Origin: Phaeobacter gallaeciensis
GTDB lineage: Bacteria > Pseudomonadota > Alphaproteobacteria > Rhodobacterales > Rhodobacteraceae
Direction: 5' to 3'
DNA length: 64,000 nt
Assembly (NCBI RefSeq): GCF_001678945.1
Contig: NZ_CP015124.1
Location: 1,795,501-1,859,500 of the forward strand
Of the stretch, positions 54,318 to 59,839 are shown in pieces. Position 1 is the first letter of the stretch. Each line of letters begins with the position of its first letter. A model generated the notes under the pieces. That model ran no database searches. It was not told the origin of the DNA and saw only the letters and a list, made by a program, of their open reading frames with translations. The position numbers and the translations under genes were made by a program.

Positions 54318-54782
54318 TCAGTTGACCTTCTGCGCTTCCAGTTCGGCGCGCTGCGGTGTGGCAGAGCTGATCTCGATCCGGCGCGGTTTCAGGGCCTCGG
54401 GCACTTCGCGCTGCAGGTCGATATGCAGCATGCCATCCGCATGGCTGGCGCCGGTGACGCGCACATGGTCGGCCAGTGTGAAACGGCGCTCGAACGCGCG
54501 GGTGGCGATGCCGCGGTGCAGGAAGGTCCGGTCCTCATCCGCTTCGGCCTTGCGGGCCGACACGACCAGGGCGTGCTCCTTCACCTCGACGCTGAGGTCG
54601 GCTTCGGAGAAACCGGCGACCGCAATCGAAATGCGATAGCTGTCGGCATCGGTCTTTTCAATATTGTAAGGGGGATAGCTGGGCTGGCTTACATCGTTGC
54701 TGAGAACCCGGTCCATCAGGTCCGCGATCTGGTCAAATCCCACGGTCGCACGGTGCAGCGGTGCAAAATCAAAGGTACGCAT
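54318..54782 (-). CDS. Small heat-shock protein Hsp20 (IbpA-like)
   Basis: 154 residues from the ATG at 54782 (GAGGA 8 bases upstream); another ATG at 54791 is too close to its site. The N-terminus is IbpA-like (MRTFDFAPLHRATVGFDQIADLMD), then the alpha-crystallin domain (about 38-130: YPPYNIEKTDADSYRISIAVAGFSEADLSVEVKEHALVVSARK) and a short tail with an IEI motif. It holds unfolded proteins as large oligomers until refolded. A heat-shock promoter and a thermosensor-like leader precede it. Confidence 0.93.
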   Translation of the reverse strand: MRTFDFAPLHRATVGFDQIADLMDRVLSNDVSQPSYPPYNIEKTDADSYRISIAVAGFSEADLSVEVKEHALVVSARKAEADEDRTFLHRGIATRAFERRFTLADHVRVTGASHADGMLHIDLQREVPEALKPRRIEISSATPQRAELEAQKVN

Positions 54783-54789
54783 ATGTGTC

Positions 54790-54841
54790 ATCCTCATCAT
54801 TGAGCGATATGTACATTGCCCTCCCACGTCTGGGGCAGGGC
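54790..54841 (-). ncRNA. ROSE-like RNA thermometer in the hsp20 leader
   Basis: The leader is about 100 nt. Its last hairpin (54790-54808) pairs UCGCUCA with UGAGGA, leaving one bulged G; UGAGGA contains the ribosome binding site. UYGCU facing AGGA with a bulged G is the hallmark of ROSE elements of small heat-shock genes. A second, stable hairpin lies upstream at 54818-54841 (GCCCU/AGGGC and CCC/GGG). Melting on heating would free the ribosome binding site. Confidence 0.7.
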
Positions 54842-54886
54842 GTTCATTTCCATCGGGCCCCGCTTGGCGGCGACCCGACACAATCG

Positions 54887-54914
54887 AGATAAGGACTGCA
54901 TCGTGGGTTTCAAG
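54887..54914 (-). promoter_or_regulatory. Sigma-32 (RpoH)-type promoter of hsp20
   Basis: On the minus strand CTTG (54911-54914), a 17-base spacer, then CTTATCT (54887-54893). This matches the alphaproteobacterial heat-shock consensus CTTG-N17/18-CYTATNT. It would start the transcript about 100 nt before the hsp20 ATG. Confidence 0.7.
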
Positions 54915-54951
54915 AGGTTGGCAGGGCGCGGAAATATGCCCCGTCTGAGGC

Positions 54952-55761
54952 CTACTGACGGATGAATTTGGCGCCGCTGGTACGGCGGCCATCGCCGACC
55001 TGAACCCGGCCCACACCGGGCGGCATGCGGCTGCCGATATGGGTGCCGGTCAGCTGCGCCTGCAACAGATCCAGCCCCTCGCCCAGCGCCGCGCCAAGCG
55101 ACACCCGCTGGCCGTTCACCTCTGCCTTGGCCGAGACCACCGAGACGATGCGTGGTGTTTTCCCGTCAAAGGAAAACACCGGCGCTCCGGAGGAGCCGAA
55201 ATCCACATCGCAGGACATCACAAGAACCCCCTGCTGCTGTGCGGTGACGGCGCAGACCTCCTGCAGCGAGGGCGCTTCGGAGCGATCATGCGCATAAGAC
55301 ACCACGCCAATCCGGCTCCCCCTGCGCGGGCGCCGGTCGGTTTCGAACGGGATAACGGTGGTGTTGCGGATGGGGCGCTGCAGCTGCAACAGCGCGATAT
55401 CCTTGCGCACCCGCCCGGTCGATACCTCGCCATCATAGACATAGTCGGGGTGGATCACCGCCCGGCGCACCGAGCGATAGGCCGAGGCGCGGCCATTGCG
55501 CCAGCCGGCCAGAAACTCGATCGTCTCTGGGGCGATCCGCTGACCGGTCCGCCCATCAAACAGACAATGTGCTGCTGTCAGGACCAGATCCGGCGCGATG
55601 AGCGAGCCTGTGCAGAAGCCTTCACCATTGACATCGAGACGGCCAACCGCCTCCCAGGCGCGGCCCGCATCCGTGGTGTCGAGCCGCTGAAGTCGGCTGT
55701 CACCAGCCGCCACAAACGCGGGCAGCAGCGCCGCCAAAATCCCGAAAACCCAATGCCGCAC
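54952..55761 (-). CDS. Secreted trypsin-like serine protease
   Basis: 269 residues if translation starts at GTG 55761, which has AGGGAG 6 bases upstream and yields a good signal peptide (RHWVFGILAALLPAFVAAG); GTG 55779 is the longer alternative. The chymotrypsin triad is intact: His in VLTAAHC, Asp in RKDIALLQL, Ser in DFGSSGAPV. A Cys pair (FCTGS...HC) fits the fold. It is an exported S1-family protease; no propeptide-processing partner is visible. It is upstream of hsp20 but that gene has its own promoter. Confidence 0.87.
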   Translation of the reverse strand: MRHWVFGILAALLPAFVAAGDSRLQRLDTTDAGRAWEAVGRLDVNGEGFCTGSLIAPDLVLTAAHCLFDGRTGQRIAPETIEFLAGWRNGRASAYRSVRRAVIHPDYVYDGEVSTGRVRKDIALLQLQRPIRNTTVIPFETDRRPRRGSRIGVVSYAHDRSEAPSLQEVCAVTAQQQGVLVMSCDVDFGSSGAPVFSFDGKTPRIVSVVSAKAEVNGQRVSLGAALGEGLDLLQAQLTGTHIGSRMPPGVGRVQVGDGRRTSGAKFIRQ

Positions 55762-55871
55762 GCATGTCTCCCTGCTCACCCTGCTTTCAGGATAGGTATC
55801 TGTTGGGGCGAAAATACGGCAAGGGCCGCGCTGAAACAGCCCGGCCCCGCAAAAAATTTACCACTGTGGGA

Positions 55872-57206
55872 TCAGCGCAGGATCGGCACCTGATCCTCAG
55901 CCGTGGCGGCATGCCCGTTCCCATCGGTCATCGCCGGCGGTTTCGGACCACCCGTGGCCCAGTCCAATAACTCAACCGTATGTACGATGGGCAACTTGGT
56001 GCCTGACCCAATCTGCATCATGCAGCCGATATTGCCAGCAGCGATCAGGTCGGGGTTCTTTGCCTCCAGCGTTTTCACCTTCCGCTCTTTCAACTGCCCC
56101 GAGATCTCGGGCTGCATCAGGTTGTAGGTCCCGGCCGACCCGCAGCACAGATGACTGTCGGCAGGCTCCACAACCTTGAAACCGGCGCGTTTCAGCAGCG
56201 TCTTGGGATGCGTCTTGATCTGCTGGCCGTGCTGCAGTGAGCAGGCCGCGTGATAGGCAACGGTCAGCCCCTTGTCGCCACCTTCGGGCAGGTCGAGTTG
56301 CATCAGCAGCTCGGAAATATCCATCGCCCGTTCCGATACCCGCGCCGCATCCGCCGCCAGCGCATCATTGCGGAACATATGGCCGTAGTCCTTCACCGTG
56401 GTGCCACATCCCGAGGTGTTGATGACGATGGCATCCAGCCCCTGTCCGTCGATCTCGGCACACCAGGCGCGGATGTTCTTGGCCGCGGTGGCGTGGCTTT
56501 CGTCCTCACGGCCCATGTGATGGGTCAGCGCCCCGCAGCAGCCCGCACCCTTTGCCACGACCACTTCGCAGCCCAGCCGGGTCAGCAGGCGAATGGTGGC
56601 ATCGTTGATATCGGTATTGAGCGCCTTTTGCGCGCAGCCGGTCATCAGCGCCACGCGCTTCTTGCGCGGCTCTGCGGGGGTGAAGCTTTGCGGATCATCG
56701 TTGCGGCTGACCGGCGGGATGTCCTTTGGCGCCATGTCCAGCATCGCCCGAAGCCGCGCATCGGGCACCAGCCCTTTGAAGGGACGCGCCAGTTTCGCAC
56801 CGAACAGCGCGAGGCGGAATCGGCCCGGATAGGGCAGAATCTGCGCCAGAACCCAGCGCAGGGCCCGGTCGGTAAAGGGGCGTTTGTAATTCTTGTCGAT
56901 ATAAGCGCGCGCGTGGTCAATCAGGTGCATGTAATGCACGCCCGACGGGCAGGTGGTCATGCAAGCCAGGCAGGAAAGGCAGCGGTCGATATGCTTGACC
57001 GTCTTTTCATCCGGCACGCGGTTGTTTTCCAGCATGTCCTTGATCAGGTAGATCCGCCCGCGCGGGCTGTCGAGCTCATCCCCCAGAACCTGATAGGTCG
57101 GACAGGTCGCGGTGCAAAATCCGCAATGCACGCAGGAACGCAGGATCTCGTTCGAGCGCTGAATGCCGGGATCCTTCAGTTGGTCTTCGGTAAATTCAGT
57201 CTGCAT
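55872..57206 (-). CDS. glcF: Glycolate oxidase iron-sulfur subunit GlcF
   Basis: 444 residues. Two 4Fe-4S motifs at the N-terminus, CVHCGFCTATCP and CLSCLACMTTCP, are followed by the two CCG repeats of the heterodisulfide reductase-like domain (GAGCCGALTHH and LCCGSAGTYN). It passes electrons from the GlcD/GlcE flavin to the membrane quinone pool. It is the last gene of glcDEF, 3 bp after glcE. Confidence 0.95.
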   Translation of the reverse strand: MQTEFTEDQLKDPGIQRSNEILRSCVHCGFCTATCPTYQVLGDELDSPRGRIYLIKDMLENNRVPDEKTVKHIDRCLSCLACMTTCPSGVHYMHLIDHARAYIDKNYKRPFTDRALRWVLAQILPYPGRFRLALFGAKLARPFKGLVPDARLRAMLDMAPKDIPPVSRNDDPQSFTPAEPRKKRVALMTGCAQKALNTDINDATIRLLTRLGCEVVVAKGAGCCGALTHHMGREDESHATAAKNIRAWCAEIDGQGLDAIVINTSGCGTTVKDYGHMFRNDALAADAARVSERAMDISELLMQLDLPEGGDKGLTVAYHAACSLQHGQQIKTHPKTLLKRAGFKVVEPADSHLCCGSAGTYNLMQPEISGQLKERKVKTLEAKNPDLIAAGNIGCMMQIGSGTKLPIVHTVELLDWATGGPKPPAMTDGNGHAATAEDQVPILR

Positions 57207-57209
57207 GTC

Positions 57210-58379
57210 TTATCCCATCAGGCCAGGGTTCAGGATCCCGCGCGGATCGAACTGGTCGCGCAGCCCCTTGGACAGGGCCGCAAGAGGCGCCGGTTGCGGT
57301 TCGAACCGGCCAAGACGCGCAGCGATTTCGGCACTGGCGCGAACCAAGGTGGCATGGCCTGGAACTGGCTCCATTCCGGTGCCTGCGCCCGACATCTTTT
57401 TGCGCAGGTCGCTACCCTCGGGCATCAGCGCCCAGATCAGCCCGCCGCCCCAGTCGAGTTGCAAAGCCGTCGCGCCAAGGCGCGGCGCCAGCTCCACCGC
57501 ATCCGAGGGCTTCACGCTGATCCGCCAGACATCGCCATCGTGGCCGTGGAACGCTGCCACATCGCGGATGCTACGCCACAGATCCTCGTCCGCCTCGGCG
57601 CGGTGAGCAATGCCGTGCTCAGCCAGCCGCTTCACCAACGCATCACAGCGGTAGTCCACCGATTCCTCGAAGCCTTCGACGCGGATATGGGCGGTCATCG
57701 TGTCGGGATCATATGCGGCCCCGGTCACATCAAAGGGCGAGCCAAGCGCCGCGGACATCGCCCGCACCGCGCCCGGCAGATCCAGACCGCCGACCGAAAC
57801 GGTGGCCATCTGCGCCGCACGCGGCAGCACCTTGAAGGACACCTCGCTCAGCACTCCCAGCGTCCCTTGCGCGCCGGACATCAGCTTCACCAGATCATAG
57901 CCGGTGACGTTCTTCATCACCCGGCCGCCATTCTTGACGATCTGGCCGGTGCCATCGACGAAACGCACGCCCAGCAGGAAATCCCGCGCCGCGCCCGACT
58001 GAATGCGGCGCGGCCCCGAGATATTGGCAGCAAAGAGCGATCCGATTGTTGGCGTGCCGTCGGTGCCCAGAAGGGCGCGGTAGTCCGCCGGTTCAAAGGC
58101 AAGGCGCTGGTTCTCTGCCGCCAACAATTCCTTGATCTCGGCAACCGGGGTTCCGGCCTTGGCCACAAGGGTCAGCGCGCCGGGTTCATAAAGCTCAATC
58201 CCGCTGAGGGCAGAAAGGCTCAGGGTCTCCCCTTCCACCGCCATGCCACGGGTACCGCCGCCCTGGATGTTGAGGGGGCCCTTGGCCGCAGCGATCATCC
58301 CGGCCAGTTCGGCCTCGCTTTCGGGTCGCATCATGGTCTTTTCCAAACGTTCTGGAGAATCATTGAAGGCGGGGATCAT
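57210..58379 (-). CDS. glcE: Glycolate oxidase FAD-binding subunit GlcE
   Basis: 389 residues from the ATG at 58379, which overlaps the glcD stop by 4 bp. ATG 58334, nearer the family's usual N-terminus (MRPESEAELAGMI), is an alternative with weaker coupling. The PCMH-type FAD domain shows LNIQGGGTRG, LGTDGTPTIGSLFAANISGPRR and GRVMKNVTGYDLVKLMSGAQGTLG. It acts with GlcD in oxidising glycolate to glyoxylate. Confidence 0.93.
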   Translation of the reverse strand: MIPAFNDSPERLEKTMMRPESEAELAGMIAAAKGPLNIQGGGTRGMAVEGETLSLSALSGIELYEPGALTLVAKAGTPVAEIKELLAAENQRLAFEPADYRALLGTDGTPTIGSLFAANISGPRRIQSGAARDFLLGVRFVDGTGQIVKNGGRVMKNVTGYDLVKLMSGAQGTLGVLSEVSFKVLPRAAQMATVSVGGLDLPGAVRAMSAALGSPFDVTGAAYDPDTMTAHIRVEGFEESVDYRCDALVKRLAEHGIAHRAEADEDLWRSIRDVAAFHGHDGDVWRISVKPSDAVELAPRLGATALQLDWGGGLIWALMPEGSDLRKKMSGAGTGMEPVPGHATLVRASAEIAARLGRFEPQPAPLAALSKGLRDQFDPRGILNPGLMG

Positions 58380-59824
58380 TCCGCCGCCAGCGCCGGAGTG
58401 CGGCGGCTTTCGGTTACCGACAGCGGGAAGACCTTGGCCGGGTTCAGCAGCCACTGCGGATCGAAGACATCCTTGACCTTCAGCTGGGCCTCCAGATCAT
58501 CGCCCGAGTACTGGTGCAGCATCAGATCGCGTTTTTCGATCCCGACGCCATGTTCGCCGGTCAGGCAGCCGCCGACTTCGACGCAGAGTTTCAGTACCTC
58601 GGCGCCGAATTCCTCGCAGAGTTCAAGGTCTCCGGGTTTATTGGCGTCGAACAGGATCAGCGGGTGCATGTTGCCATCGCCGGCGTGGAACACATTGGCC
58701 ACCGCCAGACCGAATTCCTTGCTCATCTCGCCGATGCGACGCAGCACGTAGGGCAAAGAGGACACCGGAATAGTCCCATCAAGGCACATGTAGTCGTTGA
58801 TCTGCCCCATGGCGCCAAAGGCGGATTTGCGGCCCAGCCAGATCCGCGCGGCCTCATCCGCATCAGTGGCTTCGCGCAGCTCGACCGGGTTGTGGGATTG
58901 GGCGATGTCTTTGATCACCTTCAGCTGCGCATCAATCTCGGCATCGCTGCCTTCGACCTCGATGATCAGCAGCGCCTCGCACATGGGGTAGCCCGCCTTG
59001 GCAAAGGCCTCGCAGGCCTCAATGCAGGGACGGTCCATGAACTCGATAGCAACGGGCAGCACGCCCGCCTTGATAATATCGCTGACGCAGGCGCCTGCCA
59101 CTTCGTTGCTGTCATAGCCGATCAGCACGGGACGGGCGCCTTCGGGCTTGTGCAGAATCCGCAGGGTCGCCTCGGTCACGACGCCAAGCTGCCCCTCGCT
59201 GCCGCAGATGACACCCAGCAGATCCAAGCCGCCCGCATCCAGATGCGCGCCGCCGATTTCGACCACGGTGCCATCCATCATCACCATGGTAACGCCCATC
59301 AGGTTGTTGGTTGTAACGCCATACTTCAGGCAATGCGCCCCGCCCGAGTTCATCGCGATATTGCCGGCAATGGCGCAGGCCAGCTGGCTCGACGGGTCGG
59401 GCGCGTAGAAGAAATCCTCCTCCTCCACCGCGCCGGATACGGAGAGGTTGGTGCGCCCGGTCTGCACCCGGATGATGCGGTTCTCGTAATCGGTCTCCAG
59501 CACGTCATTCATCCGTGCAACGCCCAGGATCACGCAATCCGCGGTTGGCAGGGCGCCCCCGGCCAGCGAGGTGCCCGACCCGCGCGGCACCACGGGCACG
59601 CCCTCTTCGTGGCAGATACGCAGGACCTCGGACACTTCAGCCGTGCTGCGCGGCAGCACCGCCAGCAGCGGCGGACATTTGTAAGCCGTCAGCGCATCAC
59701 ATTCGTAGGCTCGGGTCTCAGCCTCCTCCGTGATCAGGGCGTCTGCGGGCAAAACCTTTGCCAGACGCGCGGCCAGGTGGGCTTTGCGCGACAGGACTTT
59801 GGGATCCGGGGCTGGCATTTCCAT
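58376..59824 (-). CDS. glcD: Glycolate oxidase subunit GlcD
   Basis: 482 residues from the ATG at 59824 (GAGGAG, 8-base spacing); a GTG three codons earlier overlaps that site. FAD domain with VVPRGSGTSLAGGA and CAIAGNIAMNSGGAHCLKYGVTTNNLMG, then the C-terminal cap with NVFHAGDGNMHPLI and GEHGVGIEKRD. It is the catalytic flavoprotein that oxidises glycolate (and D-lactate in some). First gene of the operon, preceded by a perfect inverted repeat. Confidence 0.95.
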   Translation of the reverse strand: MEMPAPDPKVLSRKAHLAARLAKVLPADALITEEAETRAYECDALTAYKCPPLLAVLPRSTAEVSEVLRICHEEGVPVVPRGSGTSLAGGALPTADCVILGVARMNDVLETDYENRIIRVQTGRTNLSVSGAVEEEDFFYAPDPSSQLACAIAGNIAMNSGGAHCLKYGVTTNNLMGVTMVMMDGTVVEIGGAHLDAGGLDLLGVICGSEGQLGVVTEATLRILHKPEGARPVLIGYDSNEVAGACVSDIIKAGVLPVAIEFMDRPCIEACEAFAKAGYPMCEALLIIEVEGSDAEIDAQLKVIKDIAQSHNPVELREATDADEAARIWLGRKSAFGAMGQINDYMCLDGTIPVSSLPYVLRRIGEMSKEFGLAVANVFHAGDGNMHPLILFDANKPGDLELCEEFGAEVLKLCVEVGGCLTGEHGVGIEKRDLMLHQYSGDDLEAQLKVKDVFDPQWLLNPAKVFPLSVTESRRTPALAAE

Positions 59825-59839
59825 GGCGGGCACTCCTCT

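Follow-up and report, generated by a model that had tools for sequence, protein, structure and literature searches.

The gene hsp20 of the marine Rhodobacterales bacterium studied here encodes an IbpA-like small heat-shock chaperone, and the DNA in front of it raises the question of how heat controls its expression. An RpoH promoter combined with a ROSE element is the textbook arrangement of Escherichia coli ibpAB. The multilevel control of ibpAB has been reviewed (PMC8155344), and the ROSE motif is described in PMC11342760. As set out below, an RpoH-type promoter and a ROSE-type RNA thermometer very probably control hsp20.

The hsp20 locus, its promoter and its leader

The window, i.e. the whole stretch of 64,000 nucleotides that was analysed, carries hsp20 on the minus strand. 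The features discussed in the text are as follows, the last one being located outside the window.

54318..54782, minus strand: hsp20, IbpA-like (MRTFDFAPLHRATVGFDQ...), start codon ATG at 54782-54780, Pfam HSP20
54783..54884, minus strand: 5′ leader with three hairpins, a ROSE-type element, judging from the fold, the match of the covariance model R1 and a putative transcription start
about 54851..54880, minus strand: hairpin H1 (GGGUC-G-CC...GGGGCCC), bulged G at 54871, with double changes on the Hsp20 tree and the G in 83/83 leaders
about 54818..54841, minus strand: hairpin H2 (GCCCU-G-CCC...GGGAGGGC), bulged G at 54836, from the alignment pairing and the ROSE_2 consensus
54789..54809, minus strand: hairpin H3, the presumed thermosensor, in which UAUC-G-CUC pairs with GAGGAUG, G54805 is bulged and the Shine-Dalgarno sequence is covered
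54791..54794, minus strand: Shine-Dalgarno sequence AGGA inside H3, ending 8 nt before the ATG
54887..54893, minus strand: −10 element CTTATCT, from the sequence, with a CCCCA..T block in relatives
54911..54914, minus strand: −35 element CTTG of an RpoH (sigma-32)-type promoter, from the sequence, with CTTGA in relatives
L003 1300-1791 (G000:C1 about 3366170-3366668): two-hairpin ROSE-type leader and CTTG promoter of an hspD-type paralogue

The Hsp20 product matches Pfam HSP20 with an E-value of 3.3e-19 and can be aligned with E. coli IbpA over the full length, beginning with the first residues (MR.FD). The start at ATG 54782-54780, which falls just beyond the interval 54790-54914 of the preliminary description, is backed by 79 of 80 relatives matching from there. 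The product of the gene directly upstream on the same strand (54952-55779) looks like a secreted serine protease of the trypsin type (Pfam Trypsin). Three ORFs at 55872-59833, also on the minus strand, resemble the glycolate oxidase subunits GlcF, GlcE, and GlcD, as judged by eye from the translations.

The CTTG and CTTATCT elements are separated by exactly 17 nt, and the promoter lies approximately 100 nt upstream of hsp20. The preliminary description had read these elements as a sigma-32-type promoter, and this reading is supported: the match is exact in the sequence, 73 of the 83 leaders compared (see the next section) have CTTGA 120-147 nt upstream of the start codon (3.7 are expected from shuffles), and the genome encodes two RpoH-like sigma factors, one above the curated cut-off and the other below it. 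A C-rich −10 block, CCCCA..T, is conserved 3′ of CTTGA at the matching distance in relatives, so that both hallmarks of an RpoH promoter, a −35 CTTG and a C-rich −10 element at the right spacing, are found. Neither a sigma-70-like promoter nor a terminator was found in the region. RSP_1572, which is named Hsp20 of Rhodobacter sphaeroides in PMC3413700, is listed in the table of the RpoHI regulon (PMC3441632), and a C at −37 is a preference of RpoHI. RpoHI is therefore likely to be the sigma factor that transcribes hsp20.

The leader is approximately 100 nt long, and its minimum free energy is −43.3 kcal/mol (z of −2.0 against dinucleotide shuffles). The last hairpin, H3, can be read directly in the sequence in the form previously proposed: UCGCUC (54807-54802) is opposite to GAGGA (54795-54791) with one bulged G (54805), and the Shine-Dalgarno sequence is covered. 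The core consists of the pairs C54802-G54795, U54803-A54794, C54804-G54793, C54806-G54792, and U54807-A54791, and the stem is extended by A54808-U54790 and U54809-G54789. The stable hairpin that had been placed upstream of H3 is also present, but the number has to be corrected, since two hairpins (H1 and H2) lie there and the leader contains three in total. The H2 sequence of the window is a variant of GCCY-G-UCC...GGARGGC, the form found in most relatives; in the minimum-energy fold of the window's own H2, two bases (GC at 54836-54835) are bulged. In the order-wide consensus, a single bulged G is located in the 5′ arm of each of the three hairpins (window positions 54871, 54836, and 54805).

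Conservation and covariation of the hairpins

One scan of genome contigs gave 80 hsp20 loci, nearly all from Rhodobacterales by record title. Together with the window and three congeners they provide 84 leaders, of which 83 are distinct and constitute the alignment. One locus (L006), titled Nocardioides marinus DP1N28-1, is of the Rhodobacterales type (81% identity), and the record is probably mislabelled or contaminated. All 84 leaders contain U(U/C)GCU and, between it and the ATG, A(A/G)GA. Since the aligned leaders share a mean column identity of only 52%, recent ancestry alone does not account for the conserved motif.

Covariation was evaluated on a plain MAFFT alignment of the 83 leaders that was not fitted to any structure. 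In this alignment, 93.0% of the cells are paired, and both partners have changed in 12 of the 23 pairs. The score for covariation is 0.287, whereas 500 shuffles gave 0.154 and sliding the partner gave no more than 0.110. RNAalifold recovers all three hairpins unprompted. Pairing through the bulged G fails almost completely, being found in 0/83 leaders for H1 and H3 and 6/83 for H2. The bulged G itself is retained in 83/83 (H1), 80/83 (H2), and 83/83 (H3) leaders. In H2, 97.2% of the cells are paired and five pairs have changed on both sides, while 99.8% of the cells are paired in the H3 core. A conserved helix extending H3 below the core was considered but is not supported, because no covariation is observed there in the alignment register.

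Double changes were counted on a tree built from Hsp20 protein sequences, which is independent of the leader. The minimum numbers of Watson-Crick double changes are 16 at one pair and 11 at another in H1, and 12 at one pair in H2. At the apical pair of H3, at least four changes from C-G to U-A have occurred (UCGCUC/GAGGA to UCGCUU/AAGGA). The absence of covariation in relatives had been named beforehand as an observation that would contradict a ROSE-like thermometer; covariation is found in all three hairpins. The thermometer reading is thus supported by comparison, through the motif in 84/84 leaders, through the covariation, and through covariance models that, applied in either direction, point to the same sites, as described in the next section.

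The genome encodes an hspD-type Hsp20 paralogue outside the window (G000:C1:3366261), the leader of which has H1 and a bulged-G hairpin at the Shine-Dalgarno sequence and lacks H2. Since RNAalifold gave no structure on the alignment of the hspD-type leaders, their pairs were counted sequence by sequence. GUCGCU...AGG(A/G)C is found in 30/30 fetched leaders of this family, and H1 with its bulged G in 28/30, against 3.7% in shuffles. Most of these leaders are located behind a CTTG...CCCATATT promoter. A third Hsp20 encoded in the genome (L001) showed no ROSE motif at its start.

Kinship with the Rfam ROSE families

The leader has the sequence and structural features of ROSE elements. It belongs to a small heat-shock gene, a hairpin is located just before the start codon, stable hairpins lie upstream, and U(U/C)GCU pairs with the Shine-Dalgarno sequence with one bulged G (UCGCU at 54807-54803 and AGGA at 54794-54791). 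A FourU thermometer was also considered and rejected, because the partner of AGGA is UCGCU and there is no run of four U. The Rfam gathering thresholds are 45 bits for RF00435 (ROSE) and 65 bits for RF01832 (ROSE_2). The search with the Rfam ROSE models, which the preliminary description had suggested as a check, remained below threshold: RF00435 gives only 14.3 bits on a narrowed stretch of the window, in the right register and on the right strand, so that a plain Rfam search misses the leader. No match of RF00435 was found in a scan of the whole genome, and none of RF01832 in the window region up to an E-value of 10. Matches obtained at relaxed thresholds in a wider region were only unrelated chance matches. 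On the basis of this low score in the correct register and of the kinship described below, the leader is filed as a ROSE-type thermometer and a homologue that is not callable with Rfam.

The covariance model R1 was built only from leaders of the Rhodobacterales type, and its E-values are rough. The window element is its top match in the genome by a wide margin (66.3 bits, E 2.8e-16). The second match, at G000:C1:1861354 (26 bits, E 3e-4), appears to adjoin a leuD-like gene and is regarded as a false positive, having no UYGCU opposite to a Shine-Dalgarno sequence. R1 matches 145 of the 149 Rhodobacterales genomes, while RF00435 reaches its threshold in one of them and in none of a class-level sample of 240. 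The two kinds of model nevertheless agree in position. Thirteen of the 14 Rfam ROSE matches in the order coincide with R1 matches, and R1 recovers five of the six curated rhizobial ROSE elements fetched at the same place, missing L163; the five are plasmid hsp20 leaders that pass the Rfam ROSE threshold. These results indicate homology with curated members of RF00435. R1 also locates the E. coli ibpA element correctly, with 30.9 bits; Rfam ROSE_2 scores this element at 100.4 bits.

At the class level, R1 matches 77 of the 240 genomes in a strict-filter scan, and most of the loci fetched read straight into IbpA-like proteins. Weak matches outside the order are probably undercounted, since the strict-filter scan of W02 missed the known ROSE element of L162. 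Among the class-level loci L131-L157, RF00435 and RF01832 miss most of the alphaproteobacterial hsp20 leaders that R1 matches. Several of these leaders have UUGCU in place of UCGCU and a GC-richer H2.

The likenesses of the leader are divided between the two Rfam families. Like the rhizobial hsp leaders of RF00435, it has several stable upstream hairpins, an H1 with a bulged G (cCgGcc-G-CC...GG), and a final hairpin in which U(U/C)GCU is opposite to AGGA with a bulged G and which ends at the Hsp20 start codon. However, the RF00435 consensus contains a long perfect stem, whereas H2 of the leader is short, sequence-conserved, and interrupted by a bulged G, and its final hairpin lacks a conserved lower stem. 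H2 instead resembles RF01832. Its order-wide form, GCCU-G-UCC...GGA-AGGC, is nearly identical to CCU-G-UCC...GGA-AGG, and both the 83-leader consensus and the alignment with E. coli place this hairpin before the UCGCU hairpin, as in the ROSE_2 family. The UCGCU core and the small heat-shock gene downstream are also shared with E. coli ibpA, while H1 is outside the RF01832 model, which begins at H2. Since H1 matches the RF00435 consensus and H2 the RF01832 consensus, the Rhodobacterales leader bridges both models.

These mixed features speak for a shared origin of ROSE and ROSE_2, and a merger of the two Rfam families is possible. A more tentative idea, which we regard as conceivable but rather doubtful, is that both derive from one ancient leader family, of which the Rhodobacterales would have kept the alphaproteobacterial H1 together with the enterobacterial H2. 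In this view, the bulged-G motif that recurs in all three hairpins could be a recognition unit of a second control, e.g. autorepression by the small heat-shock protein, in addition to forming the thermosensor core.

Mechanism, alternatives and meaning

By analogy with known ROSE elements, a temperature upshift would lead RpoH, probably RpoHI, to transcribe hsp20. At normal temperature the short stem of H3, weakened by one bulged G, would hold the Shine-Dalgarno sequence, and heat would open H3 so that ribosomes can load. The stable hairpins H1 and H2 probably direct the folding and shield the 5′ end; the role of upstream ROSE hairpins is not fully understood (PMC3669281). The calculated stability of H3 is −5.1 kcal/mol and falls in the range of the known elements, with −4.6 kcal/mol for E. 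coli ibpA and −5.7 to −7.5 kcal/mol for rhizobial ROSE elements. The calculated mean unpaired probability of the Shine-Dalgarno sequence within the leader is about 0.007 at 20 °C and 0.054 at 45 °C, and known thermometers give no clearly stronger response in the same melting calculation. This small opening, which is not clearly larger in known thermometers, means that the calculation neither proves nor disproves switching.

The rival explanation that deserves most attention, though we consider it unlikely, is that the leader is mainly a protein-binding site, through which the small heat-shock protein represses its own translation or triggers decay via H2 and H1, the thermometer being secondary. 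Binding of IbpA to ibpAB mRNA and self-repression have been reported in E. coli (PMC8155344), and H2 (GCCYGUCC...GGARGGC), the hairpin that E. coli ibpA has as well, is conserved in sequence beyond the needs of pairing. However, H2 is missing from the hspD-type paralogue, in which H1, the thermosensor with its bulged G, and the promoter are all retained, and the ROSE core is present in H3 in 84/84 leaders; binding data for a Rhodobacterales Hsp20 were not found. Autorepression by the chaperone would in any case be compatible with thermometer action. It is quite improbable that the RpoH-type promoter performs all heat regulation, with the hairpins only stabilising the mRNA or setting a constant low translation. 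The promoter is indeed conserved (73/83) and the calculated melting change is small, but an invariant G bulge opposite to the Shine-Dalgarno sequence, adjacent to a compensated C-G to U-A change, is not expected for mere stability. Removal of the bulged G is calculated to stabilise H3 by about 3.8 kcal/mol, and yet the bulge is kept in 83/83 leaders.

The remaining two explanations concern whether the leader is an RNA element at all. The frame is open upstream of the hsp20 ATG in the window, and hsp20 might start upstream in frame as a 232-aa ORF (54318-55016), with no untranslated thermometer. This possibility is scarcely credible, since an in-frame stop lies within the 34 codons before the ATG in 59/83 relatives, the distance from H1 to the ATG is spread evenly over the three frames (29/28/26), and the alignment of Hsp20 with E. 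coli IbpA begins at the first residues of Hsp20; a coding N-terminal extension is rejected on the basis of the stops and the frame spread. The fold taken alone is only mildly unusual (z of −2.0), as chance hairpins in a GC-rich leader would be, but the order-wide conservation and covariation contradict such an origin, the probability of which we regard as negligible. Control by promoter and ROSE-type thermometer together is thus preferred.

With respect to earlier work, the preliminary description had doubted that ROSE elements were known in this group, but a paper from 2011 (PMC3230580) had already noted ROSE-like motifs upstream of ibpA and hspD in Nautella sp. R11, a Roseobacter, without experiments. 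That report concerns the same clade and the same two gene types, and makes the same motif claim. It consists of one main-text sentence and gives no sequence, alignment, covariation, or range. No paper was found in a literature search on ROSE by the order name Rhodobacterales. New relative to PMC3230580 are the order-wide conservation and covariation, the two-hairpin ROSE element on the hspD-type paralogue, and the leader combining features of both Rfam families. The short ROSE-like thermometers of Pseudomonas ibpA (PMC3669281), in which hairpin I is stable and GC-rich and hairpin II senses temperature, resemble in their two-hairpin plan the leader of the hspD-type paralogue, whereas the window element has three hairpins.

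No new regulatory principle is involved, the arrangement being the known plan of E. coli ibpA. The leader alignment supplies hairpins that can be tested, and the gap in annotation, with Rfam ROSE above its cut-off in 1/149 genomes against 145/149 for R1, is easy to close. Nearly the whole order Rhodobacterales, including the abundant marine roseobacters, carries a predicted ROSE-type thermometer before an IbpA-like chaperone gene.
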